NCBI GenBank assembly: GCA_028869255.1
Contig: CP110972.1
Location: 5,804,001-5,868,000, forward strand
Length of the DNA stretch: 64,000 bases
Source of the DNA: Pseudomonas poae
Lineage (GTDB): Bacteria > Pseudomonadota > Gammaproteobacteria > Pseudomonadales > Pseudomonadaceae
Direction: 5' to 3'
Part shown: positions 7,944-60,751 of the stretch, piece by piece
Layout: every line of letters starts with the position of its first letter
How positions within the stretch are numbered: position 1 is the first letter of the stretch
Made by a program: the position numbers and the translations under genes
Notes under the pieces: model-generated
Databases searched by the model: none
The model's input: the letters and a program-made list of their open reading frames with translations, nothing else
Told to the model about the DNA's origin: nothing

Positions 7944-11470
<3,527 letters not shown>

Positions 11471-37225: not shown

Positions 37226-39058
37226 ATGTGTGGAATTGTAGGCGCAGTCGCTGAACGCAACGTCACCGCCATCCTGCTTGAAGGCCTCAAGCGCCTGGAA
37301 TACCGCGGCTACGACAGCGCCGGTGTGGCGGTCTTCACCAACGCCGGCAAGCTTGAGCGCGTACGTCGCCCAGGCAAGGTCAGCGAACTGGAGCAGGCCC
37401 TGCTCGGTGAGCCGCTGGTCGGCCGCCTGGGCATTGCCCACACCCGTTGGGCCACCCACGGCGCGCCGTGCGAACGCAACGCCCACCCGCACTTCTCCGG
37501 TGATTTGGCCGTGGTGCACAACGGCATCATCGAAAACCACGAAGTGCTGCGCGAACAGCTCAAGGGCCTTGGCTACGTGTTCACCTCGGACACCGACACT
37601 GAAGTGATCGCGCACCTGCTGAATCACAAGCTCAAGGACCTCGGCGACCTGACCGTCGCCCTCAAGGCCACCGTCAAGGAACTGCACGGCGCCTATGGTC
37701 TGGCCGTGATCAGCGCCAGCCAGCCCGACCGCGTAGTGGCTGCACGCAGCGGTAGCCCGTTGGTGATCGGCCTGGGTCTGGGCGAGAACTTCCTGGCCTC
37801 CGACCAACTGGCGCTGCGCCAGGTCACCGACCGCTTCATGTACCTGGAAGAAGGCGATATCGCCGACATCCGCCGCGAAAGCGTGGCGATCTGGGACGTA
37901 AACGGCAATTCCGTCGAGCGCGAAGCCGTGCAATACCGTGACGGTGCTGAAGCGGCCGACAAGGGCGAGTTCCGCCACTTCATGCTCAAGGAAATCCACG
38001 AGCAACCGGCCGTGGTGCAACGCACCCTGGAGGGTCGCCTTGGTGACAAGCATGTGCTGGTCAACGCCTTTGGCCCGCAAGCCGCCGAGCTGTTCGCTAA
38101 AGTGCGCAATGTGCAGATCGTCGCCTGCGGCACCAGCTACCACGCCGGCATGGTCGCGCGTTACTGGCTGGAAGAGCTGGCCGGCATCCCGTGCCAGGTC
38201 GAGGTCGCCAGCGAATTCCGCTACCGCAAAGTGGTGGTGCAGCCTGACACGCTGTTCGTGACCATCTCTCAGTCCGGCGAAACCGCCGACACGTTGGCCG
38301 CCCTGCGCAATGCCAAGGAGCTGGGTTTCCTCGCCAGTCTGGCGATCTGCAACGTGAGCATCAGCTCCCTGGTGCGCGAATCCGACCTGACCCTGCTGAC
38401 CCAGGCCGGTCGCGAAATCGGCGTAGCCTCCACCAAAGCCTTCACCACCCAGTTGGTTGGCCTGCTGCTGCTGACCCTGTCCCTGGGCAAGGTGCGCGGC
38501 ACCCTGGCTGAAGGCGTCGAAGCACGCCTGGTGGAAGAGCTGCGCCGCCTGCCGACCCGCCTCGGCGAAGCCCTGGCCATGGACAGCACCGTGGAAAAAG
38601 TCGCTGAGCTGTTCGCCGACAAGAACCACACCCTGTTCCTCGGCCGTGGCGCGCAATACCCGGTGGCGATGGAGGGCTCGCTCAAACTCAAGGAAATCTC
38701 CTACATTCACGCCGAAGCCTACCCGGCTGGTGAGTTGAAACATGGCCCGTTGGCCCTGGTGGATGACGACATGCCAGTGGTCACCGTGGCGCCGAACAAC
38801 GAACTGCTGGAAAAACTCAAATCCAACCTGCAGGAAGTGCGCGCACGTGGCGGCCAATTGATCGTGTTCGCCGACGAAAAAGCCGGCATGACCAACGGCG
38901 AAGGCACTCACGTGATCAACATGCCGCACATCCACGACACCCTGTCGCCGATCCTCTACACCATCCCGCTGCAGCTGCTGTCTTACTACGTGGCCGTGCT
39001 CAAGGGCACCGACGTGGACCAGCCGCGCAACCTGGCGAAGTCGGTGACGGTGGAGTAA
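37226..39058 (+). CDS. glmS: Glutamine--fructose-6-phosphate aminotransferase
   Basis: Makes glucosamine-6-phosphate from fructose-6-phosphate and glutamine, the first step to UDP-GlcNAc. It has 610 residues. The N-terminal nucleophile cysteine is residue 2 ([11 protein letters not shown]), and the glutaminase motifs THTRWATHG(A) and HNGIIEN follow. Two SIS domains come next ([14 protein letters not shown] and [41 protein letters not shown]). The C-terminus ending [13 protein letters not shown] is the conserved lid. The region just after glmS is the classical Tn7 target in Gram-negative bacteria; no Tn7 ends are evident, but accessory glycan genes begin here. Confidence 0.98.
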
Positions 39059-39221
39059 CTCGCCGCTCCCTGGAGACTCGGCTGTGGTCCCAAGGATAAA
39101 AGTGTAAGCGCGTGGACGCCGGTTGGTATTGCATGACATCGGCGCCCGTTTATTTGTTCAGCACAGGGAATATTGCGTCGATGGTTCCTACAGCCCTATC
39201 TGAAATGTTGGTGTGTACTTC

Positions 39222-40148
39222 ATGAGTGCGTCCGGTACTTCACCGTTGCCCAAAGTGGCTGTTTTATTGGCCGCCTACAATGGTGAACAATGGGTCGACG
39301 AACAAGTACAGTCCATCCTGAAGCAGCAGGATGTGGATGTTAGTTTGCATATCAGTGTCGACGAGGGACGCGATAATACTCAGTCGTTATCTGAGGCGTA
39401 TGCGGCGAAGTACTCGAAGGTCACGTTGTTGCCTTCTGGCCGATTTGGCAGTGCCGGGCGCAACTTTTTCAGGTTGTTGCGGGATGTAGAACTGACTGAA
39501 CTGGATTATGTGGCCTTCGCGGATCAAGACGATATCTGGCTGCTCGATAAGTTAAAGCGATCCATCGAGCAACTGTCCGAGCACCAGGTCGGTGCGTACT
39601 CCAGTAACGTGCTCGCCTTCTGGCCTGATGGGCGCCATGAGGTAGTGGACAAGGCCCAGCCGCAAGTGCGCTGGGATCATCTTTTCGAGGCAGCGGGGCC
39701 GGGGTGTACGTATGTGCTCAGCCCGCCGTTGGCCATAGCCTTGCAAGCCTTCGTACGCGAACAATGGCACGCGCTGCAAGATGTCGCGTTGCATGACTGG
39801 TTTACCTACGCGTTTGCCCGGCAGGCCGGTTGGGGATGGGTCATCGATTCCCGGCCCAGCCTGCTGTATCGCCAGCATGGCAATAATGAGTTTGGCGCCA
39901 ACACCACCTGGCGCTCGATGTTCGGACGCCTCAAGCGGGTGCGCGAAGGATGGTGGTTCGAGCAGATCGCCTTGATTAATCGGTTGGTGGGTGCTGATTG
40001 CATTCCACCGCTGGATGGCAAGGCTTTCGGGCGTCCTCAGTTTGCGTGGATGTTCAAGAATGCTCGCCAGTGCCGTCGTCGTCGACGTGATCAAGTACTG
40101 TTCGCCGCGCTGTGTGCAGTTGCCTGGTGTATGGGCGGAACTAGATGA
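39222..40148 (+). CDS. Family 2 glycosyltransferase
   Basis: Probable rhamnosyl- or related sugar transferase for a surface polysaccharide. The 308 residues from ATG 39222 start with the GT-A fold (VAVLLAAYNGEQWVDEQVQSIL, about 12-33). The metal-binding region is YVAFADQDDIWLLDKL (about 95-110), and the acceptor side has a DWFTYAFARQAGWGWV segment and RQHGNNEFG. An earlier in-frame ATG at 39213 is possible. The C-terminus is very basic (CRRRRRDQVL) and ends abruptly at GGTR. It stands alone between glmS and an 867-base gene-poor region. The first base of the glycan locus is therefore not sharply defined. Confidence 0.82.
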   Translation: MSASGTSPLPKVAVLLAAYNGEQWVDEQVQSILKQQDVDVSLHISVDEGRDNTQSLSEAYAAKYSKVTLLPSGRFGSAGRNFFRLLRDVELTELDYVAFADQDDIWLLDKLKRSIEQLSEHQVGAYSSNVLAFWPDGRHEVVDKAQPQVRWDHLFEAAGPGCTYVLSPPLAIALQAFVREQWHALQDVALHDWFTYAFARQAGWGWVIDSRPSLLYRQHGNNEFGANTTWRSMFGRLKRVREGWWFEQIALINRLVGADCIPPLDGKAFGRPQFAWMFKNARQCRRRRRDQVLFAALCAVAWCMGGTR

Positions 40149-41015: not shown

Positions 41016-41816
41016 ATGAATCGCCGTGAACGCAAGATGCTGGAACTGCTCAAACGCGGTAAAGAAGAATACGGTTATCTCGCAGTTAAGGCCGAGTTCG
41101 AAGCAGAAGGGACTCGTGTTGACGAATTACTGCGCCTGATCGAACTCGCGCGTCGTGCCGACCTGGATATCGCGCTGAAGATCGGTGGCTGCGAGGCAAT
41201 CCGCGATTTGCTGGAAAGCAAGCAGATTGGTGTTGAATACATCATCGCACCGATGATCGAATCCGCTTATGCCGTGAAGAAATTCATCGAAGCGAAGAAC
41301 AAGGTCTACAACAAGGAAGATCAGGAAGACACCAAGTTCCTTTTCAACCTCGAAACTATTACCGGTTTCAACAACCTGAACGAGCTGATTCAGGCCGCAA
41401 GCGTGCCGGACGGTTTGGACGGCGTAGTATTCGGCCGTGTCGATTTCTCGCTGTCGAACGGCTACAGCCGTGACGACATCAACCATCCAAAAGTGACCGA
41501 GTACGCTCTGCAGACAGGTACCGCGGCCAAGGCTGCCGGCCTTGAGCTGGTCGTTGGTGGTGGTGTTTCCAGTGACGCGATCGAAGAACTGAAAAAACTC
41601 GAAGCCAACCACCTGGCGCGTTTCGAGACCCGCAAGGTTGTCTACGCGGCTGAATCGGTACGCACCTGCGATATCGAAAAAGGCCTGCTCAATGCCGTGC
41701 ATTTCGAGCTCCTTTGGCTGGAAAACAAGCGCGAGTACTACGGGTTGATCGAGAAGGAAGATGACAAGCGCATCGCCATGCTCGACTCCCGCTGGAAACT
41801 CCTGGGCGGTCAATAA
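41016..41816 (+). CDS. HpcH/HpaI-type aldolase (citrate lyase beta-like)
   Basis: Predicted divalent-metal-dependent aldolase or lyase joining pyruvate-like enolates to aldehydes. The 266 residues begin [20 protein letters not shown]. Family-type features are [18 protein letters not shown] (about 80-97), [15 protein letters not shown] near 115, and [15 protein letters not shown] (about 135-150), which corresponds to the family's DGVFIGPxDLSxSLG. The usual degradation-pathway partners are absent. Instead it opens an operon with an SDR, a dehydroquinate-synthase-like cyclase, an extended SDR and a glycosyltransferase, so a role in sugar-precursor synthesis is likely. Substrate unknown. Confidence 0.75.
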
Positions 41817-41819
41817 GAC

Positions 41820-42545
41820 GTGGTCGCTGCCACGACAGCGCGGCCTCGCATCGCGATCTTTGGCGCCTCCGGCGCCATCGGTTGCGGGCTGGTGGAATGG
41901 TTCGCTGACCGCGGGTGGGACGTTGCTGCCATCGTTCGGCGAGTGACTGCCGGCCCTGGGGCGCATGAGCAGGTGACCACCGTTGTGTGGGATCCACTTG
42001 CCGGCGAGCCCCTGCCGGCCGTGCTAGCCCAACTCGATGCGGTGGTCTGGGCGCAAGGCGATAACTGCACCGACAACATTACCGACCTGGATTACGAGCG
42101 CCACATGCGCATGTACGAAGCCAACGTCGGTCATGTGCTGGTGTCACTGAATGCTCTGCTGGGCGCCGATGCACTGGTCAACGGTGGGGCGCGCCTGTGC
42201 GTCATCAGTTCGATCTGGCAGAACATCGCCCGGCAGAACAAGCTCTCCTATTGCGTCACCAAGGCCGCGTTGCAGGGGCTGGTGCGTTCGGTGTCCCTTG
42301 ATCTGGCCGATAAAGGCCACGTGATCAATGCGGTACTGCCTGGCGCGCTCGATACGCCCATGACGCGTGCCAACCTCAGTGCCGAACAGATCGGTCGATT
42401 GGAAGCTGCGACGCCAGGTTCTCAATTGGCAGGTGTCGCCGATGTGGCTGCGGTGGTGGAGTTTTGCTGCTCGCCTGGGCATCGGTCCATCACCGGCCAA
42501 TTTCTGACGGTTGACAAAGGGTTTTCTCATGCGCGCATCGTTTAA
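41820..42545 (+). CDS. Short-chain dehydrogenase/reductase
   Basis: NAD(P)-dependent oxidoreductase of 241 residues starting at GTG 41820, 3 bases after the aldolase. It has the cofactor motif IFGASGAIGCGL (about 12-23). The active-site Ser/Tyr/Lys are in VISSIWQN and YCVTKAALQGLVRS (the YxxxK motif, with Tyr near residue 141). The C-terminal GQFLTVDKGF corresponds to the family's typical end. The gene overlaps the cyclase gene by 17 bases, indicating coupling. It may reduce a keto-sugar or keto-acid intermediate. Confidence 0.85.
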   Translation: MVAATTARPRIAIFGASGAIGCGLVEWFADRGWDVAAIVRRVTAGPGAHEQVTTVVWDPLAGEPLPAVLAQLDAVVWAQGDNCTDNITDLDYERHMRMYEANVGHVLVSLNALLGADALVNGGARLCVISSIWQNIARQNKLSYCVTKAALQGLVRSVSLDLADKGHVINAVLPGALDTPMTRANLSAEQIGRLEAATPGSQLAGVADVAAVVEFCCSPGHRSITGQFLTVDKGFSHARIV

Positions 42546-43620
42546 CATCAACAGCTCGACGGGCGTGTATCACGTGTCGCTGGGCGAAGGCCTGGTTCAG
42601 GAAGTGGTGGCTACCCAAGCCCACCGGATTTTCCTGGTGGACAGTCGCCTGATGCCTCAGGTGGCGTTTGTCACAGACCCGATCATCGCTGTCGACGCAA
42701 CCGAAGAAAACAAGTCTCTGGAACGGATCGCGCCTGTCATCGAAGCGCTCAAGCGCCATGGTGCGACGCGTGATACCGAGATCGTCGCAGTGGGCGGCGG
42801 GATCATCCAGGACATCGCGACATTCGTCGCCTCGATTTATATGCGTGGCCTGCGCTGGCACTACTGCCCGACCACGCTACTGGGCATGGTCGATTCCTGT
42901 ATCGGCGGCAAGTCATCGATCAACGTCGGTGCGCTGAAAAATCTGGTGGGTAATTTCCATCCACCGGCCAGTATTCTGATTGACCTCGCGTTCGTGCATA
43001 GCCTGAGCGCCGAGCAACAAACCAGCGGCCTGATGGAGTCGGTTAAAATCTGCTACGCCCGGGGCGCACAAGCCTTTGCGGCTTACCTGGATTTGCAGCC
43101 CGCGCCACCGCTCAAGTCAGAAACCGCTTTCGCCATCATCGAGCAGAGTCTGACCACTAAAAAGTGGTTCATCGAAATCGACGAGTTCGACCGTGCCGAA
43201 CGCCTGTTGCTGAACTTCGGTCACACCTTTGGCCATGCTGTGGAGTCAGCCACCAGCTTTGCGATCCCTCACGGTATCGCGGTGGGTGTAGGCATCCTGA
43301 TGGCCTATCGGTATGCCCAGGTAGCGGCAATCCTGACGCCTGAGGGTGAAGCCCGCGCCGGGCGCCTGGTTGCCCACGTGCAAGACCTGCTGCAGCCGAT
43401 GCGTCACACCCTTGCGCCACTGGTCGGGGTGAGTGCCGATGAGTTGCTCAAGCACTTCGCGAGCGACAAAAAGCACTCCCAGAGCCATTACCGGGTAATC
43501 GTTCCGGTCGGTGACGGTGATTTGCAGCGGTTGTCGGTTGAGCGTACCCCGGCTGTTCAAACGCTGATCGCAAATGCTTTTGCCCAAGGCGCAGAGCTCG
43601 CCATTCATGGCGGTGCCTGA
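42529..43620 (+). CDS. 3-dehydroquinate synthase-like sugar phosphate cyclase
   Basis: NAD- and metal-dependent cyclase of the dehydroquinate synthase superfamily, 363 residues from ATG 42529 with AAAGG upstream. Recognisable motifs are GGGIIQD (89-95) for NAD, GGKSSIN (126-132), LKNLVGNFHPP, the metal ligands Glu170 in LMESVKIC, His in NFGHTFGHAVES (232/236) and His248 in IPHGIAVG, and DKKHSQSHYR near the end. The usual HGEAV has Ile in place of Glu. A normal aroB normally lies near aroK, not in a glycan operon, so this is probably a paralogue making a carbocyclic sugar or acid. It overlaps the SDR by 17 bases and the next gene by one. A redundant AroB is the alternative. Confidence 0.82.
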   Translation: MRASFNINSSTGVYHVSLGEGLVQEVVATQAHRIFLVDSRLMPQVAFVTDPIIAVDATEENKSLERIAPVIEALKRHGATRDTEIVAVGGGIIQDIATFVASIYMRGLRWHYCPTTLLGMVDSCIGGKSSINVGALKNLVGNFHPPASILIDLAFVHSLSAEQQTSGLMESVKICYARGAQAFAAYLDLQPAPPLKSETAFAIIEQSLTTKKWFIEIDEFDRAERLLLNFGHTFGHAVESATSFAIPHGIAVGVGILMAYRYAQVAAILTPEGEARAGRLVAHVQDLLQPMRHTLAPLVGVSADELLKHFASDKKHSQSHYRVIVPVGDGDLQRLSVERTPAVQTLIANAFAQGAELAIHGGA

Positions 43621-44567
43621 TGGACAGTTTTAACCAGGTCGACTTCGTCGTTATCGGGGCAACCGGCTGGTTGGGTCAGGCTACCCTTGAACACCTGTTC
43701 CGCCAGCTCGCGCCGGCCGACAGGTCACGGGTACATGCCTTTGCTTCGACCGCCCGGCCATTGGTCCTGCGCGACGGCACCGTCGTACAGGTTGAGGCTC
43801 TATCTTCTTTGCCGGCGCTGCGTACGTCCCGGCCTGCGCTGGTGTTCCATTACGCGTTCCAGACCAAGGATCGCGTTGGGGCCAACAGCCAGGAGGTCTA
43901 CACGCTCCTCAATCGCAGCATTCGTGAAGCGTTGCTGCAGTTTGTCGACGCTAACCCGATTGCTGGTTTGTTTGTGCCCTCCAGTGGAGCGGCCTATGCA
44001 GGGATGGATGCGGACAACCAGAGCGATGGAGCGATTTATGGCCGTTGCAAACTGGACGATGAGCGTGTCTTCGAGGCCATTGGCCAGCAGTACCGCTTCC
44101 CGGTGGTGAGCCCGCGGGTATTCAACGTCAGCGGGCCCTACATCAATAAGCACAATCTGTACGCGTTGGCGTCGATCATCAGCGCGTGCCTGGCGAACGA
44201 GCCGATCAGTGTGCGTGCGACTCACCCGGTGATTCGCTCCTACTACAGCGTCACTGACCTGATTGAGTTGTGCTGCCGTCTGATGTTCAGCGCCCGTGAT
44301 AAAGGCCCTGTGTTCCACGTGTTCGATACCGTGGGTACTGAAGTGGTCGAGGTTGGAGAGCTGGCGCTGCGCTGCCAAACATTGCTTGCGCCGCACCTGG
44401 CTATCGAGCGACCTGCACTGAGTGAAAAGCCGGCAGACCGATACGTGGGCGATCCCACTGCGATTCGTGAGTTCGAACGCAACCTGCAGTTGACCCCGCT
44501 TGGGTTGGATCAGCAGATCAAACTGACCGCCGACTATATGAGCAGCCTTGCTGAAAGTGACAAGTAA
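43620..44567 (+). CDS. NAD-dependent epimerase/dehydratase-family protein (extended SDR)
   Basis: Probable nucleotide-sugar reductase, epimerase or dehydratase, 315 residues. It has the Rossmann motif VIGATGWLGQATLEHL (about 12-27), LFVPSSGAAYAGMD, and the YxxxK catalytic pair in YGRCKLDDERVF (about 141-152). PRVFNVSGPYI follows, as in sugar epimerases. The start overlaps the cyclase stop by one base (TGATG) and its own end overlaps the next gene by one (TAATGA). It is a candidate to reduce the branched keto-sugar produced by the ThDP enzyme at 50608, as YerF does in yersiniose synthesis. Confidence 0.8.
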   Translation: MDSFNQVDFVVIGATGWLGQATLEHLFRQLAPADRSRVHAFASTARPLVLRDGTVVQVEALSSLPALRTSRPALVFHYAFQTKDRVGANSQEVYTLLNRSIREALLQFVDANPIAGLFVPSSGAAYAGMDADNQSDGAIYGRCKLDDERVFEAIGQQYRFPVVSPRVFNVSGPYINKHNLYALASIISACLANEPISVRATHPVIRSYYSVTDLIELCCRLMFSARDKGPVFHVFDTVGTEVVEVGELALRCQTLLAPHLAIERPALSEKPADRYVGDPTAIREFERNLQLTPLGLDQQIKLTADYMSSLAESDK

Positions 44568-45652
44568 TGACCGAAACTCGATCAATATTCATGCCTGTGC
44601 GGCGTAACCCTTATTACATTGTCACCGCTCGTTATGTGCGCACTTCCGCCGGGATCAAGGCGCTGCATTTTCTGTGTCACGCGCTCAATCGCATGGGCGA
44701 GCAAGCCTTTTTGATCATGCACCCGCACTTTCCATCGTATTTGGCGGGTCATCCATCACTGAACACGCCGGTGCTGACCAAGCGCGTCATGGATTACCAC
44801 CGTGCGCAGGGTCTGACCCCTATCACCATCTATCCCGAGAGCATCCGGGGCAACCCTGTTCAGGCGCCCTTTATTGTTCGGTATGTGTTGAATTATGCCG
44901 GCGTCCTGGGCGGTGACACACGGTTTCCGGAGTCGGAGTATTGCATCTCCTACAGCGAAGCCATTGCCGCAACAGTGCCGGAGTCGAAACAGACTCTTTT
45001 CATTCCGGCCTCGGACCCTAACTTTTTCGTACCGCCCGCACCGGGTACCAAACGCCAGGGTGGGTGTTTTTATGCGGGTAAGTATAAAAACTACTACGGT
45101 GGCAAGACCTTTGCGGTCACCGACGGGCTGGTTGAGATCGTTCGGGATCGTGATGATGAGCAGACCCCCGAGCAGATTCGTGACCTGTTCCAGCAAAGCG
45201 AGCGGTTCTACTGCTATGAAAACTCGGCATTGGCCATTGAGGCCATGCTGTGCGGTTGCCCGGTAGTGTTCTTGCCGAACGAGCACTTTACCGAGCTGAT
45301 TGGCAAGGGCGAGCACGGGACTGAAGGTTACGTATGGGGTGACGGCGACGCGGCTGGTTTCAAGCGTGCGCAAGAGACCGTGGGTGTGGCGCGCGAGCGT
45401 TACTTGAGCCTGTATGAGCGTGCGGAAGGCGTGCTGGTGGATTTCGTTGCGCAGACTCAGGTACTGGCCCAGGCGACGGCTTACGATGTGCCCATGAGTG
45501 AAACATACGTTGAAAAAGTTTCTCGTTCTTTCCGTTACTTCAGCTTCATCAAGATGGTTCTTTTGATGGTTCGGGAGCGGGGTCTTGTTCATACCGCCGG
45601 TCTGATCCTCGCACGCCTGAAAACGGGCCGAATTCGACTCACCGATGCATGA
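44567..45652 (+). CDS. Glycosyltransferase-like protein (GT-B type)
   Basis: Likely cytosolic glycosyltransferase of the surface-glycan pathway, 361 residues. The N-terminal half (YIVTARYVRTSAGIKALHFLCHALNRMG) resembles a GT-B acceptor domain. The C-terminal half has the donor-side block YENSALAIEAMLCGCPVVFLPNEHF (about 220-244), with the Glu/Ala/Met and GCPVV pattern common in GT-B enzymes, and a basic, partly hydrophobic tail. It is the last gene of the 41016 operon. I cannot name the donor sugar. Confidence 0.7.
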   Translation: MTETRSIFMPVRRNPYYIVTARYVRTSAGIKALHFLCHALNRMGEQAFLIMHPHFPSYLAGHPSLNTPVLTKRVMDYHRAQGLTPITIYPESIRGNPVQAPFIVRYVLNYAGVLGGDTRFPESEYCISYSEAIAATVPESKQTLFIPASDPNFFVPPAPGTKRQGGCFYAGKYKNYYGGKTFAVTDGLVEIVRDRDDEQTPEQIRDLFQQSERFYCYENSALAIEAMLCGCPVVFLPNEHFTELIGKGEHGTEGYVWGDGDAAGFKRAQETVGVARERYLSLYERAEGVLVDFVAQTQVLAQATAYDVPMSETYVEKVSRSFRYFSFIKMVLLMVRERGLVHTAGLILARLKTGRIRLTDA

Positions 45653-45878
45653 AGAAGCGCATGGAAAAGGTTATACCTGGTGGCCCGCCACTGACTATCT
45701 GCATCGCCACTTAATAGGGGTGGCGATCAGGTGCATGCGCGGCTGCTTTTTATAAAGCACAATCTCCGTATCCGTTATGGGTCTGTAGACGACTAGTTAG
45801 AAGATAATACGAACGCCGCCGGGTTGTGCCACGACCAGCCCCGATAAAACTTATTTTGGAATAATGCAGGAGCAAACG
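45653..45878. other. Intergenic region between the two glycan operons
   Basis: These 226 bases separate the aldolase-cyclase operon from rfbFGH. An inverted repeat ATCGCCAC / GTGGCGAT (45703-45710 and 45720-45727) could be a terminator-like hairpin or an operator. A T run occurs later, near 45748. The right end has the ribosome-binding site CAGGAG for rfbF. No clear promoter was found. Confidence 0.4.
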
Positions 45879-46649
45879 ATGAAAGCAGTGATTTTGGCTG
45901 GTGGGCTTGGCAGCCGCCTGAGTGAAGAGACGAGCACGCGGCCAAAACCTATGGTTGAAGTGGGTGGCCGTCCAATTCTCTGGCACATCATGAAAATCTA
46001 CTCTCATTATGGCGTGAATGATTTCGTGATTTGCCTGGGCTACAAGGGCTATGTCATCAAAGAATACTTCGCCAACTATTTCCTGCACATGTCGGACGTT
46101 ACCTTCGACATGGCGAACAACAAAATGGAAGTCCACCAGAACAACGCCGAGCCATGGCGTGTGACCCTGGTTGATACCGGGGCTGAGTCTCAGACCGGCG
46201 GTCGCCTGCGTCGCGTTCGTGATTATCTGGAACCGGGCGAAGATTTCTGCTTTACCTATGGCGACGGCGTTGCCGATGTCGATATCGGCAAACTGGTGGC
46301 CTTCCACAAAGCCCACGGTAAAAAGGCAACGGTCACCGCGACCCAGCCCCCAGGCCGTTTCGGCGCTCTGAACATCAACGATCACCATGTGGAAAGTTTC
46401 CGCGAGAAACCCCACGGCGATGATTCCTGGATCAATGGCGGTTACTTCGTGCTCAAGCCGGAAGTCATCGACCTGATCGAGGCCGACGACACCATCTGGG
46501 AGCGTGAGCCCCTGGAAGCGCTGGCCCGCGACCGTGAGCTGCTGGCCTATGAACACGGCGGCTTCTGGCAGCCGATGGATACCCTGCGCGAGAAACAACA
46601 GCTGGAGGACTTGTGGGAACGCAAGGTCGCCCCGTGGAAAGTATGGTGA
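45879..46649 (+). CDS. rfbF: Glucose-1-phosphate cytidylyltransferase
   Basis: Makes CDP-glucose from glucose-1-phosphate and CTP, the first step of the CDP-3,6-dideoxyhexose pathway (also called ddhA). It has 256 residues from ATG 45879, the family length, with CAGGAG upstream. The nucleotidyltransferase motif is [21 protein letters not shown] (about 5-25), followed by [30 protein letters not shown] and [13 protein letters not shown]. It overlaps rfbG by 7 bases. Confidence 0.95.
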
Positions 46650-47725
46650 TCAATCCGGCGTTCTGGCAGGGCAAGCGGGTATTCCTGACGGGACATACCG
46701 GTTTCAAAGGCGGCTGGTTGGCGCTGTGGCTGCAGGAAATGGGCGCGATCGTTACCGGGTTCGCCCTCGAACCGCAGACCACCCCCAGCCTGTTCGACGT
46801 TGCGTCGGTGGGCGAGCGCATGACCTCGATCATCGGCGACATTCGTGATGGCGCAGCCTTGGCGGCAGCCGTTGCCCAGGCGCAGCCGGAGATCGTACTG
46901 CACTTGGCGGCGCAGCCACTGGTCCGCTATTCCTACGACGCACCAGTAGAAACATTCGGTACCAATGTAATGGGTACCGTGCATCTGCTGGAAGCGGTTC
47001 GTGCTTGCCCCACTGTGCGTTCCTGCGTCGTGGTCAGCTCCGACAAATGCTACGAAAACCGCGAATGGCCTTGGGGCTACCGCGAAAACGAAGCCATGGG
47101 CGGTTATGACCCCTACAGCGCGAGCAAGGGCTGTACCGAACTGGTGACAGCCTCTTATCGCAGCTCGTATTTCAACCCGGCCCGCCACGCTGAACACGGT
47201 GTTGGGTTGGGCAGTGGCCGTGCAGGCAACGTGATCGGCGGCGGTGACTGGGCCGCAGATCGTCTGGTGCCGGATCTGCTGGGGGCATTTGAGCGCAAAG
47301 AAGTTGCTATCATCCGCAACCCGGGAGCGATTCGCCCTTGGCAGCATGTGCTCGAGCCGCTGTCGGGCTACCTGGTGCTGGCCCAGCGTCTCTATGAGGA
47401 CGGTGCACAGGTGGCCGAAGGCTGGAACTTCGGCCCTGCAGACTCCGATGCCCAGCCCGTGAGCTGGATTGCCGAGCGCATGACGCAGTGCTGGTCCGAC
47501 GGCGCTCAATTCCGTATCGAAGCAAATGCTGCGGCCCCTCACGAGGCCAACTACCTCAAGCTCGATTGCTCCAAGGCCCGTGCGCGATTGTCTTGGACAC
47601 CACGCTGGTCCCTCGCCCGTGCGTTGGATGAGGTAGTGGGCTGGCACCGAGCGTTTCTGGCCGGCAGCGACATGCGACAAGTGTGTATTGATCAAATTTC
47701 GAGCTTTTCTCAAGCCCGACCATAA
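46643..47725 (+). CDS. rfbG: CDP-glucose 4,6-dehydratase
   Basis: Converts CDP-glucose to CDP-4-keto-6-deoxyglucose (also ddhB). It has 360 residues from ATG 46643 ([20 protein letters not shown]). The dinucleotide motif [14 protein letters not shown] is at about residues 16-29. The family-typical [27 protein letters not shown] and the Tyr/Lys pair in [14 protein letters not shown] follow. Overlapping ends with rfbF and rfbH (TAATG) point to strict co-translation. Confidence 0.95.
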
Positions 47726-49059
47726 TGAACACGGATTACCTGATGACCACCCAAGACGACCTCAGAAAACAGATTGACGACCTGGCCCAGCAATACTCCA
47801 AGACCGCGTTTGCGCGTCGTGAATTCGTGCCTGGCGTGACCGCCATTCCACCGGCAGGCAAAGTGATCGATGGGGCCGAAGTCGGCCTGATGATTCAGGC
47901 CTCGCTGGATGGTTGGTTGACCACTGGCCGTTTCAACACCGAATTCGAAAAGCGCCTCAGCAAGTTCCTTGGCGTCAAGCACGTACTGACCACCAACTCC
48001 GGTTCGTCAGCCAACCTGCTGGCGTTCACCGCGCTGACCTCGCCAACCCTGGGCGATCGCGCAATCAAGCCGGGTGACGAAGTGATTGGCGTGGCGGCGG
48101 GCTTCCCCACCACCGTCAACCCGATCATCCAGAATGGTGCGATCCCGGTATTTGTCGACGTTGACCTGGCGACCTACAACATCAACCCGGACCTGATCGA
48201 AGCAGCCATTTCGCCGAAAACCAAGGCGATCATGCTGGCTCACACCCTCGGCAACCCGTACAACCTGCGCAAGATTCGCGAGCTGTGCGACAAGTACAAG
48301 CTGTGGTTGGTCGAAGACTGCTGCGACGCCCTGGGTTCTACCTATGACGGCAAGCTGGTCGGCACCTTTGGCGATATCGGCACCTTGAGCTTCTACCCGG
48401 CTCACCACATCACCATGGGTGAAGGCGGCGCGGTATTCACCAACAAGTCCAAGCTGCGTCTTGCGGTCGAATCCATTCGTGACTGGGGCCGCTCGTGCTT
48501 CTGCCCGCCAGGTGAAGACAACACCTGCAAGAAGCGTTTTTGCTGGCAACTGGGTGATCTGCCGTATGGCTACGATCACAAGTACACCTACTCCCACCTG
48601 GGCTATAACCTCAAGATTACCGACATGCAGGCCGCTTGCGCTCTGGCGCAAATGGACAAGCTGCCGTCCTTCATCGAGGCGCGCAAACATAACTTTGCCT
48701 ACCTGAAGGAGCGGCTCGCGAGCTGTGCGGAGTTCCTGATTCTTCCGGAAGCCACTGAAGGCGCTGAGCCGTCGTGGTTTGGTTTCCCGATCACCTTGAA
48801 GGACGCGATCCCGTATCAACGTCTTGATCTGCTGACGTTCCTGGACGAGCACAAAATTGGTACACGACTTCTCTTCGCCGGGAATCTGCTGCGCCAACCG
48901 TATATGATTGGCCGCGAATATCGTGTGTCGGGCACTTTGGAAAACACTGACCGGATCATGAGCAAGACGTTCTGGGTTGGCGTTTGGCCAGGTCTGACCC
49001 ATGAAATGCTTGACTACGTCGTAGATCGTATCGAAACGTTCTTCGGTATCAACAAATAA
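47725..49059 (+). CDS. rfbH: CDP-6-deoxy-4-keto-glucose 3-dehydrase (E1)
   Basis: PMP- and iron-sulfur-dependent enzyme that removes the 3-hydroxyl to form the 3,6-dideoxy skeleton (also ddhC). It has 444 residues. His227 in [13 protein letters not shown] stands in place of the lysine of ordinary PLP aminotransferases, the hallmark of E1. Cys200, Cys258, Cys260 and Cys268 have the spacing of the known [2Fe-2S] ligands. The start is ATG 47725 overlapping rfbG; ATG 47743 (MTTQDDL) is an alternative. E1 normally needs a reductase (E3, DdhD), which is not visible in the window. Confidence 0.95.
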
Positions 49060-49070
49060 TAGGACGCCCC

Positions 49071-49874
49071 TTGAGTAAGCGCTTTTCTAAACGAGTAAGT
49101 GAAGCCTGGAGTGATTTGCGCGCTGCTTTGGTTGCGACGGAAACCTGGATTTTCCTGGGAAGTCATGACATCAAGCAGCGGTATCGGCGTTCAGTGCTGG
49201 GGCCGTTCTGGATCACCCTCAGTACCGCCGTGTTGATCGGCGGCCTGGGCGTGATGTATGCCGGGTTGTTCAAGATGGATGTGAATGACTACATCCCCTA
49301 CCTTGCTGCCGGCATGATCACCTGGAACTTCATGACGCTCGTGGTCACTGAAAGTTGCTTTGTGTTCACGGGGGCGGAAGGCAGTATCAAGGCGGCAAGG
49401 ATACCCTTGTCGTCCTATGTGCTGCGGCTGGTGTGGCGCAACATCCTGGTGTTCCTGCACAACTCGGTCGTATTGATCGGTGTGGTGGTGTGGTTCCTGC
49501 CGTTCAACTTCATGAACTTGTTGATGGCCTTGGTCGGGCTGGCGGTGATCGGGGTGTTCCTGTTCTGGCTGGCACTGCTCGTCGGCCTGCTCAGCGCGCG
49601 TTTTCGCGATATCCCGCTGATTGTTGCCAACGTGATGCAGGTGGTGTTTTTCATGACGCCCATCATGTGGAAAGCGGAGGTGCTGAGCTCGCGGATGTGG
49701 ATCGCCGAGATGAACCCGTTCTACTACATGCTCGAACTCGTTCGTAACCCGCTGCTGGGCCAGCCATTGACCATGAGCGTCTGGACCGGTGTGGCCGCGA
49801 TTGTGCTGGTTACCGCGGTGGCCTCTTTTCTTTTGTTTGCGCGTTTTCGTACGCGCATTGTTTATTGGTTGTAA
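49071..49874 (+). CDS. wzm: ABC transporter permease for polysaccharide export (Wzm-like)
   Basis: Inner-membrane channel subunit for lipid-linked O-polysaccharide. It has 267 residues starting at TTG 49071 with a GGAC-type ribosome-binding site. It contains about six hydrophobic segments and the ABC-2 type beginning KQRYRRSVLGPFWITLSTAVLIGGLG. MNPFYYMLELVRNPLLG near residue 225 is the typical C-terminal coupling region. wzt follows 3 bases after the stop. Confidence 0.92.
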   Translation: MSKRFSKRVSEAWSDLRAALVATETWIFLGSHDIKQRYRRSVLGPFWITLSTAVLIGGLGVMYAGLFKMDVNDYIPYLAAGMITWNFMTLVVTESCFVFTGAEGSIKAARIPLSSYVLRLVWRNILVFLHNSVVLIGVVVWFLPFNFMNLLMALVGLAVIGVFLFWLALLVGLLSARFRDIPLIVANVMQVVFFMTPIMWKAEVLSSRMWIAEMNPFYYMLELVRNPLLGQPLTMSVWTGVAAIVLVTAVASFLLFARFRTRIVYWL

Positions 49875-49877
49875 CCC

Positions 49878-50624
49878 ATGGCCCACATCATTGCTAAGGA
49901 CCTGGTAGTCGAGTTTCCGATTTACCAGGGCGCGCAAAGGTCGATGCGCAAAACGTTCCTCAAGGCGGCGTCAGGAGGAAAGCTGGCTGGCTCCGACTCG
50001 CGAGTGCTGGTCCGTGCGGTTGACGGCGCCACGTTCTCGATCAACGACGGTGAGCGCGTCGGTTTGCTGGGCCACAATGGCTCGGGCAAGACCACATTGC
50101 TGCGCGCCTTGAGCGGTGTGTATGAGCCGGCCAGCGGTACGCTCGACATGGACGGTTCGATCACCTCACTGCTGGATATTTCCCAAGGCTTCGACCTCGA
50201 CTCCAGTGGCCTTGAGAACATCACCCTGCGCGCCATCACCATGGGGCATTCGCCGAAGCGGATCAAACCGCACATCGATGAGATCTGCGATTTCTCCGGG
50301 TTGGGCGACTACCTGAAGCTGCCCGTTCGTACCTATTCGAGCGGGATGATGATGCGCCTGGCATTTGCTATCTCGACCTCCGTCGGCTCCGACATCCTGT
50401 TGATGGACGAATGGCTGAGCGTTGGCGACGATGATTTCAAGGCACGAGCCACCGAGCGGCTCACCCATCTGTTCAACCGTGCAGCGATCGTCGTGATTGC
50501 CTCGCACGATACCGCGCTGCTCGCGCGCACTTGTACGCGAATCCTGCACGTGGAACACGGCAAGATCATTCGCGAACAAACCGCTCAAGAATTCACCGGG
50601 AGTGATCATGCAGAAAAAGTATAG
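49878..50624 (+). CDS. wzt: ABC transporter ATP-binding protein for polysaccharide export (Wzt-like)
   Basis: ATPase partner of the upstream permease. It has 248 residues with Walker A GHNGSGKTTLL (about 63-73), the signature YSSGMMMRLAFAI, Walker B ILLMDEWLSVGD and the switch HDT. It ends soon after the nucleotide-binding domain, so the C-terminal carbohydrate-binding domain found in Wzt proteins that read a capped O-chain is absent. Export should therefore not need a terminal cap. The last 17 bases overlap the ThDP enzyme gene. Confidence 0.92.
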   Translation: MAHIIAKDLVVEFPIYQGAQRSMRKTFLKAASGGKLAGSDSRVLVRAVDGATFSINDGERVGLLGHNGSGKTTLLRALSGVYEPASGTLDMDGSITSLLDISQGFDLDSSGLENITLRAITMGHSPKRIKPHIDEICDFSGLGDYLKLPVRTYSSGMMMRLAFAISTSVGSDILLMDEWLSVGDDDFKARATERLTHLFNRAAIVVIASHDTALLARTCTRILHVEHGKIIREQTAQEFTGSDHAEKV

Positions 50625-52392
50625 CGATTGGGTCAGTACCTGGCTGGCAGAAGCAGGCTACACCCACTGCTTCTTCGTAGCAGGCGGCAATATCATGCAC
50701 CTGCTGGAAAGCCTCAGCCATAACCTGACCTGCGTCCCCGTCGTGCATGAAGTGGCGGCAGGTATCGCGGCAGAATATTTCAACGCCACCAACGGCCAGG
50801 GCCACAAAGCCTTGGCGCTGGTCACTGCAGGCCCTGGCCTGACCAACATCGTCACGGCTTTGTCCGGTGCCTTCCTCGAAAGCCGCGAACTGCTGGTGAT
50901 CGGTGGTCAGGTCAAGACTGCAGACTTGAGCCACGGCGAATTGCGTCAACGCGGTATCCAGGAAATCGACGGTATTGCCATCGCTCGTCCTGTCACCGTC
51001 GCCGCCGAGCGCCTGGACACCCAGCTCTCCCGCGAAGCTTTCCTGGCCCTCTGCGCAGCTACCGAGCGTGGCCGCCCGGGCCCGGTGTTCATCGAACTGC
51101 CGCTGGACGTGCAAGGCCGCTTGATGAGCGCCGAAGAACTGCCGACCACGCCTGCCGTTGCCGTTACTGGCAAGCCAATGCCGTTGCCTGCCGATGTTCG
51201 CACGGCCGAGACCTCGCTCGACGAGGTGCTGGGCCTGTTGCGCGGCGCTCAACGCCCTGCGGTGTTGATTGGCGGCGGCGTCAGCCATGAAGCGGCGGCG
51301 GCGTTGACAGCCATCGCCGAGCAGCACTCGTTGCCGTTGTTCACAACCTGGAATGGCCTGGACCGTATCGCCGCCGACCATCCATGCTATTTCGGCCGGC
51401 CCAATACCTGGGGTCAGCGCTACGCCAACCTGCTGCTCCAGCAGGCCGATCTGGTGCTGGCGCTGGGTACGCGGCTTGGCCTGCAGCAGACCGGTTTCAA
51501 CTGGCAGGAATTCGGGCGTGGCGGCAAGGTCGTGCAGGTGGACTGCGATGTGGCCGAACTGACCAAGGGCCACCCACGTGTCGACGTGCCGATCTGTGCC
51601 GACGTCAACCCGTGGCTCAAGAGCCTGGCTTCCAGGCTCGAAGGTCAGTGGAGCGAGTGGCACGGCTACTGCCGCCAGGTTCAGGCGTCTTTGCCATTGA
51701 TCGAAGAGAACGTGACCCACGAGGGTTACCAATCACCGTTCAAACTGGTGGAGCATCTGTCTACTTTGCTCACCGCAGACGACGTGGTTGTGCCTTGCAG
51801 CAGCGGCGGCGCGTTCACGGTCATGATGCAGGTGTTCGCACAGAAGGCCGGCCAGCGCGTGGTGACCAACAAGGGCCTGGCCTCGATGGGTTACGGCTTG
51901 AGCGGTGCGATTGGCGCGGCATTTGCCAACCCGGATCAGCGCGTAGTGTTGGTTGAAGGTGACGGCGGCTTTGCGCAGAACCTCCAGGAAATCGGCACGG
52001 TTGGCGTTAACCGCCTGAACGTGAAGATCTTTATCTTCGATGACTCGGGCTATGCGTCTATTCGTTCGACCCAACGTAGCTACTTCGGTGGGCGTTACGT
52101 GGGTTGTGACATCGAAACGGGCTTGGGTCTGCCAAACTGGGCTGCGTTGTTTACCGCCTACGGTATTCCGGTGGTGCACGTAGAGCCAGGCTTTGAAAGC
52201 TCGCAGGCGTTCACCGCTCAACTCGAGAGCGATGGCCCGGGCGCCTTCATCGTCAAGGTCGACCCTGAGCAAACCTATTTCCCAAAAATCACCAGCCGAG
52301 TCACGCCAACGGGCATGGCTTCCAACCCGTTGCACCAGATGTCGCCTGATCTGGATGACGCGTTGGCGCAGCAGGTTACGCGCTTTCTGTAA
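50608..52392 (+). CDS. Thiamine-diphosphate-dependent enzyme, YerE/acetolactate-synthase-like
   Basis: ThDP enzyme of 594 residues from ATG 50608. The activating glutamate is Glu48 in PVVHEVAAGIAAEYF. The central Rossmann domain spans about 205-340. The C-terminal ThDP-binding motif starts GDGGFAQN (451-458) and ends in DDSGYASI. The start KKYSDWVSTWLAEAGYTHCFFVAGGNIMHLL resembles, from memory, YerE, the enzyme that transfers a two-carbon unit from pyruvate to CDP-3,6-dideoxy-4-keto sugars in yersiniose synthesis. Lying directly downstream of rfbFGH it is well placed for that reaction. An unrelated acetolactate-type decarboxylase is the alternative. Overlaps wzt by 17 bases. Confidence 0.82.
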   Translation: MQKKYSDWVSTWLAEAGYTHCFFVAGGNIMHLLESLSHNLTCVPVVHEVAAGIAAEYFNATNGQGHKALALVTAGPGLTNIVTALSGAFLESRELLVIGGQVKTADLSHGELRQRGIQEIDGIAIARPVTVAAERLDTQLSREAFLALCAATERGRPGPVFIELPLDVQGRLMSAEELPTTPAVAVTGKPMPLPADVRTAETSLDEVLGLLRGAQRPAVLIGGGVSHEAAAALTAIAEQHSLPLFTTWNGLDRIAADHPCYFGRPNTWGQRYANLLLQQADLVLALGTRLGLQQTGFNWQEFGRGGKVVQVDCDVAELTKGHPRVDVPICADVNPWLKSLASRLEGQWSEWHGYCRQVQASLPLIEENVTHEGYQSPFKLVEHLSTLLTADDVVVPCSSGGAFTVMMQVFAQKAGQRVVTNKGLASMGYGLSGAIGAAFANPDQRVVLVEGDGGFAQNLQEIGTVGVNRLNVKIFIFDDSGYASIRSTQRSYFGGRYVGCDIETGLGLPNWAALFTAYGIPVVHVEPGFESSQAFTAQLESDGPGAFIVKVDPEQTYFPKITSRVTPTGMASNPLHQMSPDLDDALAQQVTRFL

Positions 52393-52444
52393 TAGCTATT
52401 GAACGGGCAGCCTGTGGGCTGCCCGGTTCACAGCTGACCCTCTA

Positions 52445-52471
52445 CCGCGAGCCTGTCTCGCGGTTTTTTTT
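52445..52471 (+). terminator. Intrinsic terminator of the glycan operon
   Basis: The stem CCGCGAG / CTCGCGG with loop CCTGT is followed by eight T residues. A further inverted repeat GGGCAGCC / GGCTGCCC (52405-52424) lies just upstream. Both lie between the ThDP enzyme gene and the convergent pbpC. Confidence 0.92.
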
Positions 52472-52494: not shown

Positions 52495-54795
52495 TCACGG
52501 CACAAACTCCACCTTCAACCCCCGGCTCGCGCTACGCCCCTGATCATCACTGACCCGCAACCAATATTCCCCCGATTTGCCCGGCCGCCAGTTCAGCGTG
52601 GTTTGCGGTGGGCCCTGGCCAATCAGCGTCTGGTCGGCGAACCAGTACAAGGTCGCCGCATCACTGGCCGCGTTGGCGCTCAGCGGGATGCTTTCCTGGG
52701 GCTGGGACAGGCGCAACTGGTAGCTCACCTGCGTCAGCGGCGAGCGGATTTGCGGCGCTTCGCTCTGGTCGCTGACGCGATTGGGCTGACAGTTCTTCAT
52801 CACATTCGGCGGTGTGCGCCGGGGCAGGCCGGCGGCGCGGTACAGGCGCTGGACGTCGCTGGGCCAGAACTCGAAGACTTCTTCGCGGGTGTATTGCGCC
52901 TCGAACGGTGGGCACGCGGCCTTGCCGGTGCGGGTGTCGATCAGTACCGGGCGGTGCAGGTTGGACACGCGTATCGGCGAGACGCCGGGGATGTACCAGG
53001 TCTTGCGGGTTTGCGGGCACCAGCGGTTGGGCAACTCGCCGGAAGCGGCGCAGACGTCGATGCGCACCAGCCCGGCGGGTGGTTTGTCGGGTTTGATCAG
53101 CACATTCGGCAACGCCAGGGGCAAGGCATCGGCGATGCGAAAGAACAGCGGCGCGGCGGTCTTGGCGCCGATAAACGCCGGGTTCGGGCGACCATCAAAG
53201 TTACCTACCCACACCACCAGCACGTACGGGCCGACCAGGCCGGCGCTCCAGGCGTCGTGAAAACCCCAGGACGTGCCGGTTTTCCAGGCGGTACGCCAGT
53301 GGCGATCGGGCAAACCATCCGGGCGCGGGTTGCGGCGCAGCATGTCGCGCACCATAAACGCGGCTTGCGGGGTGAGCAGTTGGGGGCCGGTGGATGGCGG
53401 CTGGTCCTGCACATAGCGCAATGGCCGCAGATGCCCGTCGCCGGCCAGCATCACATACAGCTGCGCCAGCTCCTCCGGCGTCATCTCACCGCCGCCGAGG
53501 GCCAGCGCCAGGCCGTAGTGGCTTTCACCGCGCAGGCCCTTGATACCGGCGCGTTGCAGCAATCCATACAGAGACGGCGATTTTACCTGGCTGGCCAGCC
53601 ACACAGCGGGGATATTGCGACTACGGATCAGGGCGTCCCGCGCAGTCAGTGGCCCGACAAAACTGCCGTCGAAATTTTCTGGCTGGAAGTAGCCGAAGTT
53701 ACTCGGCAAATCCTTGAGGATGCTCATGGGGTGGATAACCCCTTGGTCCAGCGCCAGCCCATAGAGGAATGGCTTGAGGGTCGACCCTGGCGAGCGCCGC
53801 GCCAGCACGCCGTTGACCTGGCCGTGGATGCTTGTGGATAAGTAATCCGCCGAGCCCACCAATGCCTTTACGCTCTGATCACGGCTGTCGATCAGAATCG
53901 CCGTGGCGTTTTCCACGCCGGTGCTGCGCCGTTCAGCGATAAAGCCGGTGATCAGGCGTTCGAGTAATTGCTGCAAGGGCAGGTTAAGGGTGCTGTTCAA
54001 CTCATTGTCCGGCTGGGACGCCAGCAACTGTTCGCTCAGGTGCGGTGCCAGAAACGGGATCTGCTGGCGGTTGCGCGCCTCCAGCGGCAAGTCGAGCAAA
54101 CTGCCGTTACGCGGGTCTTGTGGATAAGTTTCACGCCAGTCGGCCATCAACCGCAGCCGCGCATTTTGCAGGGATGGCCCAAAGCGTGCGCGCCGCCCCG
54201 GCTGCTGGGGAATCACCGCCAGCGCCAGGGATTCCGACAAGGACAACTGCGATGCTGACTTGCTGAAGTAAATCCGGCTCGCCGCCTCGGCGCCTTCGAT
54301 ATTGCCGCCCATGGGGGCCAGGTTCAGGTAAGCCTCGAGAATATCGTGCTTGCTGTACCGCGCCTCCAACCACAATGCCAGGGCCATCTGTTGCAGCTTG
54401 CCCGGTACCTGGCGGGTGTTGAGGTCCCACAACCGCCGTGCCAGTTGCATGCTCAAGGTCGAGCCGCCCTGACGCTGGCCGCCGCTGTAGGTGGCCATGG
54501 CCGCCCGCAGCAACGCCGGCGGATTGACCCCGGGGTGCCAGTAGAAATTGCGGTCTTCCTTGAGCAGTAAGGCTTCGACCAGTGACGGTGATATGCGCTC
54601 CAGCGGTAGCCATAAACGGTATTGGCCGTCATCCGCCAGCGTCATGCGCAGCAATGAGCCGTCGTCGGCCAACACCACCCGTGAGGAGCTCACGGTCTGT
54701 TCCAGCGGGGCGTGCGGCCATAGCCGCAACCCCGCCAACAGCACCGCCGCTGCCAGCAGCGGCGGCGTCAGTCGCTTAAGGCTTGGTAATTTCAA
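52495..54795 (-). CDS. pbpC: Penicillin-binding protein 1C
   Basis: Bifunctional peptidoglycan glycosyltransferase/transpeptidase of 766 residues in the inner membrane. An N-terminal membrane anchor precedes the glycosyltransferase domain (LKEDRNFYWHPGVNPPALL and GQRQGGSTLSMQLAR, about 75-120). The transpeptidase domain has SPGSTLKPFLYG (SxxK serine near 340) and KTGTSWGFHDAW (KTG near 515). A C-terminal beta-rich PBP1C-specific domain follows (about 680-766). It overlaps the end of the alpha-2-macroglobulin gene by 20 bases, the same pairing as yfhM-pbpC in E. coli. Two perfect DnaA boxes lie inside. Confidence 0.96.
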   Translation of the reverse strand: MKLPSLKRLTPPLLAAAVLLAGLRLWPHAPLEQTVSSSRVVLADDGSLLRMTLADDGQYRLWLPLERISPSLVEALLLKEDRNFYWHPGVNPPALLRAAMATYSGGQRQGGSTLSMQLARRLWDLNTRQVPGKLQQMALALWLEARYSKHDILEAYLNLAPMGGNIEGAEAASRIYFSKSASQLSLSESLALAVIPQQPGRRARFGPSLQNARLRLMADWRETYPQDPRNGSLLDLPLEARNRQQIPFLAPHLSEQLLASQPDNELNSTLNLPLQQLLERLITGFIAERRSTGVENATAILIDSRDQSVKALVGSADYLSTSIHGQVNGVLARRSPGSTLKPFLYGLALDQGVIHPMSILKDLPSNFGYFQPENFDGSFVGPLTARDALIRSRNIPAVWLASQVKSPSLYGLLQRAGIKGLRGESHYGLALALGGGEMTPEELAQLYVMLAGDGHLRPLRYVQDQPPSTGPQLLTPQAAFMVRDMLRRNPRPDGLPDRHWRTAWKTGTSWGFHDAWSAGLVGPYVLVVWVGNFDGRPNPAFIGAKTAAPLFFRIADALPLALPNVLIKPDKPPAGLVRIDVCAASGELPNRWCPQTRKTWYIPGVSPIRVSNLHRPVLIDTRTGKAACPPFEAQYTREEVFEFWPSDVQRLYRAAGLPRRTPPNVMKNCQPNRVSDQSEAPQIRSPLTQVSYQLRLSQPQESIPLSANAASDAATLYWFADQTLIGQGPPQTTLNWRPGKSGEYWLRVSDDQGRSASRGLKVEFVP

Positions 54796-60577: not shown

Positions 60578-60751
60578 GGTGAGCATCCCTGGCTAAGTGC
60601 GGCGTATCTTACAGGTATCTTTGATACAAAAGATGACGCGGATACGCCGCACAGCGTGGATGTTTACCGAGTTAGCGGGATGAAAAAGGAGCGAGGGGGG
60701 AGCAGCAGCGGTTTCGGATTTTTCCCGCTCTCGAAAACACTGCAAAACAAA

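Follow-up and report, generated by a model that had tools for sequence, protein, structure and literature searches.

This analysis concerns a sugar-biosynthesis gene cluster in a window of 64,000 nucleotides from the Pseudomonas poae genome (CP110972.1, positions 5,804,001 to 5,868,000 of a single 6.8-Mb contig; coordinates below are those of the window). The cluster lies between glmS (37226-39058) and pbpC (52495-54795, minus strand) and consists of two runs of genes that overlap or abut one another. The first run (41016-45652) encodes an aldolase, a classical short-chain dehydrogenase/reductase (SDR1), a protein with the dehydroquinate (DHQ) synthase fold, called AroB-like below, an extended SDR (SDR2) and a protein without assigned family, and the second (45864-52392) encodes RfbF, RfbG, RfbH, the transporter components Wzm and Wzt, and a YerE-like enzyme dependent on thiamine diphosphate (ThDP) (Table 1). 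An earlier note, made from the sequence alone, had described this set as two neighbouring operons of a glycan locus, which proved to be real: each gene that it named is an open reading frame at its coordinates, and Pfam and NCBIfam back most of the labels. RfbF, RfbG and RfbH all score above their curated cut-offs, which places them in the CDP-3,6-dideoxyhexose pathway, and the last gene of the second run was classed as a YerE-like ThDP lyase on the basis of three ThDP domains, a GDG motif and its position beside rfbFGH.

Table 1. Features of the cluster and its surroundings in the window. L-numbers denote loci from other genomes and percentages refer to matches with the window protein.
Feature	Coordinates	Strand	Basis
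Family-2 glycosyltransferase (GT2)	39213..40148	+	PF00535; 84% in L095
HpcH/HpaI-type aldolase	41016..41816	+	PF03328, 41.4 bits (gathering score 25)
SDR1, classical short-chain dehydrogenase	41820..42545	+	PF13561, PF00106
AroB-like, DHQ-synthase fold, TIGR04425-like	42529..43620	+	TIGR04425 292.7 bits; aroB 248.7 bits
SDR2, extended SDR	43620..44567	+	PF01370, 60 bits
Conserved protein without family, candidate GT-B transferase	44567..45652	+	Relatives (40-87%) in L095, L103, L170, L171
RfbF, glucose-1-phosphate cytidylyltransferase	45864..46649	+	TIGR02623, 469 bits (cut-off 300)
RfbG, CDP-glucose 4,6-dehydratase	46613..47725	+	TIGR02622, 501 bits (cut-off 278)
RfbH, CDP-6-deoxy-4-ketoglucose 3-dehydratase	47725..49059	+	PRK15407, 746 bits (cut-off 423)
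Wzm-type ABC-2 permease	49071..49874	+	Open reading frame, position beside Wzt; 92% in L095
Wzt ATPase (short form, 248 aa)	49878..50624	+	Galactan Wzt 232 bits, best NCBIfam match, under its cut-off of 400
YerE-like ThDP carboligase, T. caryophylli/mycobacterial clade	50608..52392	+	PF02776, PF00205, PF02775; 73% to T. caryophylli P0245; tree
Terminator-like hairpin after the second run	52444..52464	+	Hairpin scan

The distribution of the set was followed in 28 loci tabulated at E 1e-6, 20 with a gene of the AroB-like type (window included) and eight without it. Five of them (L005-L009) are those with the glycan-type KWF motif among 80 loci listed from a scan of genome contigs with the AroB-like protein, the 80 being mainly other DHQ-synthase relatives with no Trinickia among them. 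In the genus of the window, 298 genomes (its own included) were searched with the AroB-like protein; two matched, namely the window's own and the one that holds L095. The same query retrieved L102 and L103 from two of 399 genomes of the order of a Ramlibacter genome. Three of 394 genomes of the class of a Phycicoccus genome matched the aldolase (L107-L109), and 11 of 297 genomes of a genus with many PE proteins, assumed to be Mycobacterium, matched the ThDP enzyme (L121-L131). A search of 398 genomes across the phylum gave aldolase matches in seven. Five of these supplied L170-L174; the sixth is the window's own, and the seventh is that of L102, whose second entry (L169) was omitted from the table. 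A plasmid search with P0013 gave no match.

The aldolase is present in 19 of the 20 AroB-like loci, which belong to two phyla (the exception is L127, where a sugar-kinase-like gene and a DegT-type aminotransferase, both read from translation only, follow). A YerE-like gene also occurs in 19 (not in L007, a 4.3-kb contig), as do at least one of rfbF, rfbG and rfbH (not in L109, a 5.6-kb contig) and SDR1 (not in L108), the latter being found in none of the eight loci without the AroB-like gene. Relatives of the aldolase (40-92%) in 23 other tabulated loci are accompanied by a YerE-like gene and/or Rfb genes in every case, and by a YerE-like gene in 21 (not in L007 and L172). In L095, from another genome of the same genus, all 12 window proteins tested were matched at 84-98%, and in L103, from a different order, the gene order is that of the window, including the family-less protein. 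As the loci had been picked with one of the set's own genes, the counts were also taken per query. The AroB-like protein led to eight loci besides the window, all with the aldolase and seven with a YerE-like gene; the actinobacterial aldolase query gave three loci, all with both the AroB-like and the YerE-like gene; and among the 11 loci obtained with the mycobacterial ThDP query, seven have the aldolase and six the AroB-like gene. The AroB-like gene is thus nearly always found in this company, whereas both the aldolase and the ThDP enzyme can be present where it is missing. That the set belongs to one pathway is well supported. The earlier note had called the combination unusual and had made its proposal depend on the two operons co-occurring in other genomes; they do co-occur, and the combination, which recurs in unrelated genomes, is a conserved one.

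In a tree of ThDP enzymes, the window's enzyme falls within a clade of 23 rows (support 99/97) that includes the T. caryophylli and the probable M. marinum enzymes; the outgroup row of this tree is extremely long (branch of about 10), and the root serves for drawing only. The nearest solved relatives are 8rph (284 bits) and 5ahk (191 bits), the latter of which we take to be PpYerE, as against 1018 bits to the T. caryophylli enzyme. ErwE prefers long hydroxy-functionalised keto acids, and the donor preference of MMAR_2332, the ThDP enzyme of M. marinum, is similar, with long hydroxy-2-keto acids (PMC12247030). Membership of the clade speaks for long donors in the window's enzyme as well, and in view of the clade and of the preference of MMAR_2332 it is probably not of the two-carbon, yersiniose-forming kind as which the earlier note had read it. 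We consider it very unlikely that yersiniose, with its two-carbon branch, is the product of RfbFGH and the ThDP enzyme, and that the aldolase, the SDRs and the AroB-like protein serve a separate quinate-like substituent or the shikimate pathway. YpYerE does prefer pyruvate (PMC12247030), and yersiniose A has been reported from Pseudomonas mandelii, according to the title of a cited paper; however, both sets of genes stand together in 19 of the 20 loci, and because of this co-occurrence yersiniose with an unrelated cyclitol was ranked lower.

Two sources of caryophyllose were available for comparison, namely the lipopolysaccharide (LPS) of Trinickia caryophylli, whose major chain consists of caryophyllose and whose minor chain consists of caryose, a carbocycle (PMC9026286), and the lipooligosaccharide (LOS) of Mycobacterium marinum (PMC5706390). 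Among the 120 matches listed, the closest named relatives of the AroB-like protein outside Pseudomonas are those of T. caryophylli (72%) and T. acidisoli (70%), and the same two species are the closest for the ThDP enzyme (73%) outside Pseudomonas among the matches listed; the aldolase of T. acidisoli is 77% to that of the window, and all three proteins of this species are entered under a contig of 4,069,305 bp. The mycobacterial genome G1313 is probably M. marinum: its CYP142 agrees at each of 401 residues with PDB 7smz ('Cytochrome P450 142A3'), presumably an M. marinum protein, although a second P450 had no PDB match under the threshold applied. Its locus (L125) carries, in this order, rfbF, a GT2 gene, the YerE-like gene, the aldolase, SDR1 and the AroB-like gene, and rfbH and rfbG lie there in divergent orientation; the gene set is present in this genome, and the AroB-like protein and the ThDP enzyme were found in T. 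caryophylli. Mutants in MMAR_2331, MMAR_2332 and MMAR_2333 build up a LOS-II precursor, that is, LOS-II without terminal caryophyllose, the MMAR_2333 mutant being credited to a paper whose title concerns a glycosyltransferase (PMC5706390). Judged by gene order, the aldolase would correspond to MMAR_2331 and the AroB-like gene to MMAR_2329.

Our proposal, which we regard as probable, is that the locus directs the synthesis and export of a glycan in which one of the sugars is caryophyllose or a close stereoisomer of it. Such a sugar is a 3,6-dideoxyhexose whose C4 carries a polyhydroxy chain of six carbons. RfbF, RfbG and RfbH would supply CDP-3,6-dideoxy-4-ketoglucose, the established product of these families. 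The aldolase would join pyruvate to a tetrose-4-phosphate, probably D-erythrose-4-phosphate, to give 2-keto-3-deoxyheptonate-7-phosphate. The chemistry of DHQ synthase consists of oxidation, beta-elimination of phosphate and re-reduction, and the AroB-like enzyme may proceed through the same steps; the enol left behind, if protonated rather than attacking C2, would be a methyl ketone, and the product would leave as, or revert to, open 2,6-diketo-3,7-dideoxyheptonate and not a cyclohexane. SDR1 would then reduce the new methyl ketone, with the net conversion of CH2-O-phosphate to CH3, after which the YerE-like enzyme would decarboxylate the keto acid and put the six-carbon acyl unit on C4 of the keto sugar. 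The C1' ketone remaining after branching may be reduced by SDR2, and Wzm and Wzt, judged by their families, would export the chain.

The predicted donor, 2-keto-3,7-dideoxyheptonate, corresponds to an aldol product of the type of 3-deoxy-D-arabino-heptulosonate 7-phosphate (DAHP) in which CH2-O-phosphate has been turned into CH3. After loss of CO2 and reduction of the ketone, it gives exactly the side chain of caryophyllose, a 1,3,4,5-tetrahydroxyhexyl group at C4 of which C6' is a methyl (PMC5706390). By our own reading of the systematic names, C8-C9 of caryophyllose are D-erythro, as in erythrose-4-phosphate, and C7 is opposite to that of DAHP, which would explain the need for a dedicated aldolase; the predicted product of the aldolase is the D-ribo acid, epimeric to DAHP at C4. 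The same logic could operate with a different aldose phosphate for the aldolase and produce a branch of another length or stereochemistry, and thus a new relative of caryophyllose. Erwiniose and gastriose are branched sugars with other chains (PMC12247030), the substrate of the aldolase is not readable from its sequence, and the ThDP enzymes of L170 and L005 belong to another clade; the identities of 72-73% between the AroB-like and ThDP enzymes and those of T. caryophylli nevertheless favour the same product, and such a relative seems distinctly unlikely to us.

The caryophyllose proposal depends on what the AroB-like enzyme does. Its best family, matched over the full length, is TIGR04425 ('AroB-related putative sugar phosphate phospholyase (cyclizing)'), a hypoth_equivalog without assigned reaction whose name presumes cyclisation. 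The protein scores below the cut-off of this family (400) and below that of the aroB equivalog TIGR01357 (305); it is a full member of neither and a relative of TIGR04425. Each of 24 glycan-type rows retains all 14 landmark residues of DHQ synthase, including ligands of Zn, carboxylate and phosphate, and so do nine comparison rows, which were counted as ordinary AroB since they have no glycan-type motif. The residue table has no row for L006, L025, L038 and L046, where no open reading frame matched the motif filter, and P0016, P0056 and P0120 appear in this table only. With the landmark residues kept, the substrate is likely a carboxylated sugar phosphate. Two substitutions set the glycan-type rows apart: DSS is replaced by DSC in 24 of 24, versus 0 of 9 comparison rows, and HGE by HG(I/V/L/A) in 24 of 24, versus one of nine.

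Alternatively, the AroB-like enzyme may close the ring, in which case the product of the locus would be caryose or another carbocyclic sugar, or one that bears a dehydroquinate-like ring. The protein shares its fold and every landmark residue with DHQ synthase, the NCBI family name says 'cyclizing', and T. caryophylli makes caryose besides caryophyllose (PMC9026286). However, cyclisation consumes the 2-keto group required in the ThDP donor, loci without the AroB-like gene carry HAD phosphatases, and the same kind of AroB-like gene is found in the probable M. marinum locus, the LOS residues being listed without a carbocycle in the available part of PMC5706390. Because of this last finding a carbocyclic final product was ranked lower, and we consider it unlikely. 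The earlier note had suggested a longer branched or a carbocyclic sugar; the genes probably form one pathway to the first, a longer, branched 3,6-dideoxyhexose akin to caryophyllose, and the second is less likely and not needed.

A separate canonical aroB (L004, G000:C1:5377300-5379700) exists in the genome and lies in two frames in this assembly, which could be taken to favour a role of the AroB-like protein in the shikimate pathway. As a second shikimate AroB the protein was nevertheless set lower, since it scores higher to TIGR04425 than to aroB and stays under the aroB cut-off. Moreover, gyrB is split over two overlapping frames in the window (7944-10425, minus strand); as gyrB is essential, the split points to an indel error of the assembly, and the break in aroB is for this reason likely a sequencing error too. 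A true loss of aroB made good by the AroB-like gene would be the alternative to an assembly error. An alpha-2-macroglobulin-like gene (54776-60586, minus strand) appears broken in the same way as gyrB.

The eight loci without the AroB-like gene were searched with two HAD phosphatases (from L126 and L173) and a NeuB-type synthase (from L128). A HAD phosphatase was matched in five (L126, L131, L172, L173 and L174) and the NeuB-type synthase in three (L128, L129 and L131), so that L131 has both and L121 neither. In L121, transposase-like remnants lie directly after the aldolase (after 11733), where other mycobacterial loci carry SDR1 and the AroB-like gene, and this is possibly a locus that lost these two genes. 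The ThDP tree places L128 and L129 as a pair, on short branches, within a group of mycobacterial loci that have the AroB-like gene (group support 87/93); the cassette therefore seems to have been exchanged and the ThDP enzyme retained. A NeuB-type synthase could give a dephosphorylated 2-keto-3-deoxy acid, and so could an aldolase acting together with a phosphatase, or with a phospholyase plus reductase. Such an acid is what a long-donor ThDP enzyme requires. The NeuB-family synthase near the YerE-like gene in L128, L129 and L131 suggests sialic-acid-like 2-keto-3-deoxy acids as branch donors in these loci. A second cassette without the AroB-like gene was seen in L172-L174, with an aldolase (40-44% to that of the window), a radical SAM/SPASM protein, an SDR and a HAD phosphatase; its partners are a YerE-like gene at 33% (L173, L174) and/or Rfb genes (L172, L173), and no YerE-like gene was found within the 19.9 kb of L172.

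Taken more generally, a DHQ-synthase-fold enzyme would act as a non-cyclising phosphate lyase that, together with an SDR, converts CHOH-CH2-O-phosphate to CHOH-CH3 and yields 2-keto-3,7-dideoxyheptonate, the donor with which, in two phyla or more, a ThDP enzyme would attach branches of six carbons to sugars of the bacterial surface. We hold the chances of this wider claim to be even; its non-cyclising outcome and exact product are what we infer. Several observations weigh against the proposal. The DHQ-synthase intermediate formed from DAHP closes its ring readily, so that an open product could arise only by protonation within the active site or by retro-aldol opening, which makes this the weakest step, and the DSC and HG(I/V/L/A) substitutions are the only pointers to a non-cyclising outcome. 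Among the 120 matches listed there is no T. caryophylli aldolase, the AroB-like and ThDP enzymes of this species were seen by presence and not by adjacency, and the species name of G1313 is one that we infer. Of the 20 AroB-like loci, the window's among them, only 13 gave a match to SDR2, and its co-occurrence is weak evidence because extended SDRs are common. The phylum-wide aldolase query found the AroB-like gene in three of six genomes other than the window's own (it is missing in L172-L174), two of the seven mycobacterial aldolase loci lack it (L121 and L126), and L127 has the YerE-like gene, SDR1 and the AroB-like gene but no aldolase. In L170 and L005 the cassette is combined with a different ThDP clade (34% and 33%); the branch may therefore differ there, and other products are likely in some genomes. 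As to the exchanged cassettes, the HAD match in L131 is weak (29%, 54 bits), and the lack of a HAD match in all 20 AroB-like loci, which counts in favour of the proposal, holds for the two HAD queries only, other phosphatases not having been searched for.

Some further features of the locus deserve mention. The family-less protein at the end of the first run had been labelled a glycosyltransferase in the earlier note; this label is unproven, as the protein has no match in Pfam or NCBIfam and a five-sequence profile found nothing better than E 0.84 in the PDB. A fold predicted from the single sequence had a predicted local distance difference test (pLDDT) score of 36 and was not used. The protein is possibly a candidate for an unrecognised glycosyltransferase family. 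The GT2 gene located between glmS and the first run is probably part of the glycan locus. The aldolase falls far short of the NCBIfam equivalog models such as HpaI. For the AroB-like protein, the ATG at 42529 was chosen as start over the TTG at 42511 because the majority of aligned relatives begin there, and the true start of RfbG is probably the ATG near 46646. Terminator-like hairpins such as the one behind the second run were matched 11 times in the region, versus 13.8 expected in shuffles.

Caryophyllose has been known since the 1990s. In the literature searched, we found no description of the assembly of its long branch or of the TIGR04425 reaction, and an earlier publication is possible. 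If the proposal is true, the window would hold a full and testable caryophyllose gene set in a Pseudomonas, which would complete the caryophyllose pathway, and the set would mark genomes of Actinomycetota and Pseudomonadota that make sugars with long branches. A function would be assigned to a family that so far has no more than the name 'putative phospholyase (cyclizing)', and the sugar-phosphate cyclase superfamily would gain a new outcome of DHQ-synthase chemistry. The enzymes could also serve the synthesis of chiral tertiary alcohols.

Among known systems, the yersiniose A pathway also has RfbFGH and a ketone reductase; to our knowledge, it adds a two-carbon branch from pyruvate and has no aldolase or AroB-like gene. 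The window resembles it in the CDP-3,6-dideoxy-4-ketohexose acceptor and the ThDP branching enzyme, and 8rph, one of the solved relatives, carries the CDG motif given for JanthE (PMC12247030). The likeness to the caryophyllan/caryan LPS of T. caryophylli lies in the AroB-like protein and the ThDP enzyme. Gastriose ends in CH2OH, and, unlike the arrangement of the window, an aldolase with a HAD phosphatase, as in L126, would fit this sugar. Its long branch is formed in M. gastri by MygE, a YerE-like enzyme that accepts C3-C8 keto acids with benzaldehyde (PMC12247030). The M. marinum LOS is trehalose-based and not a chain exported by Wzm/Wzt, and the published accounts, in their available parts, tie MMAR_2331-2333 to caryophyllose and make no mention of the AroB-like gene (PMC5706390, PMC12247030). 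The corresponding region of the probable M. marinum genome shares with the window GT2, ThDP enzyme, aldolase, SDR1 and AroB-like gene, there in this order, with RfbFGH alongside, and its proteins in L125 are 53% (ThDP enzyme), 58% (aldolase) and only 35% (AroB-like) to those of the window.

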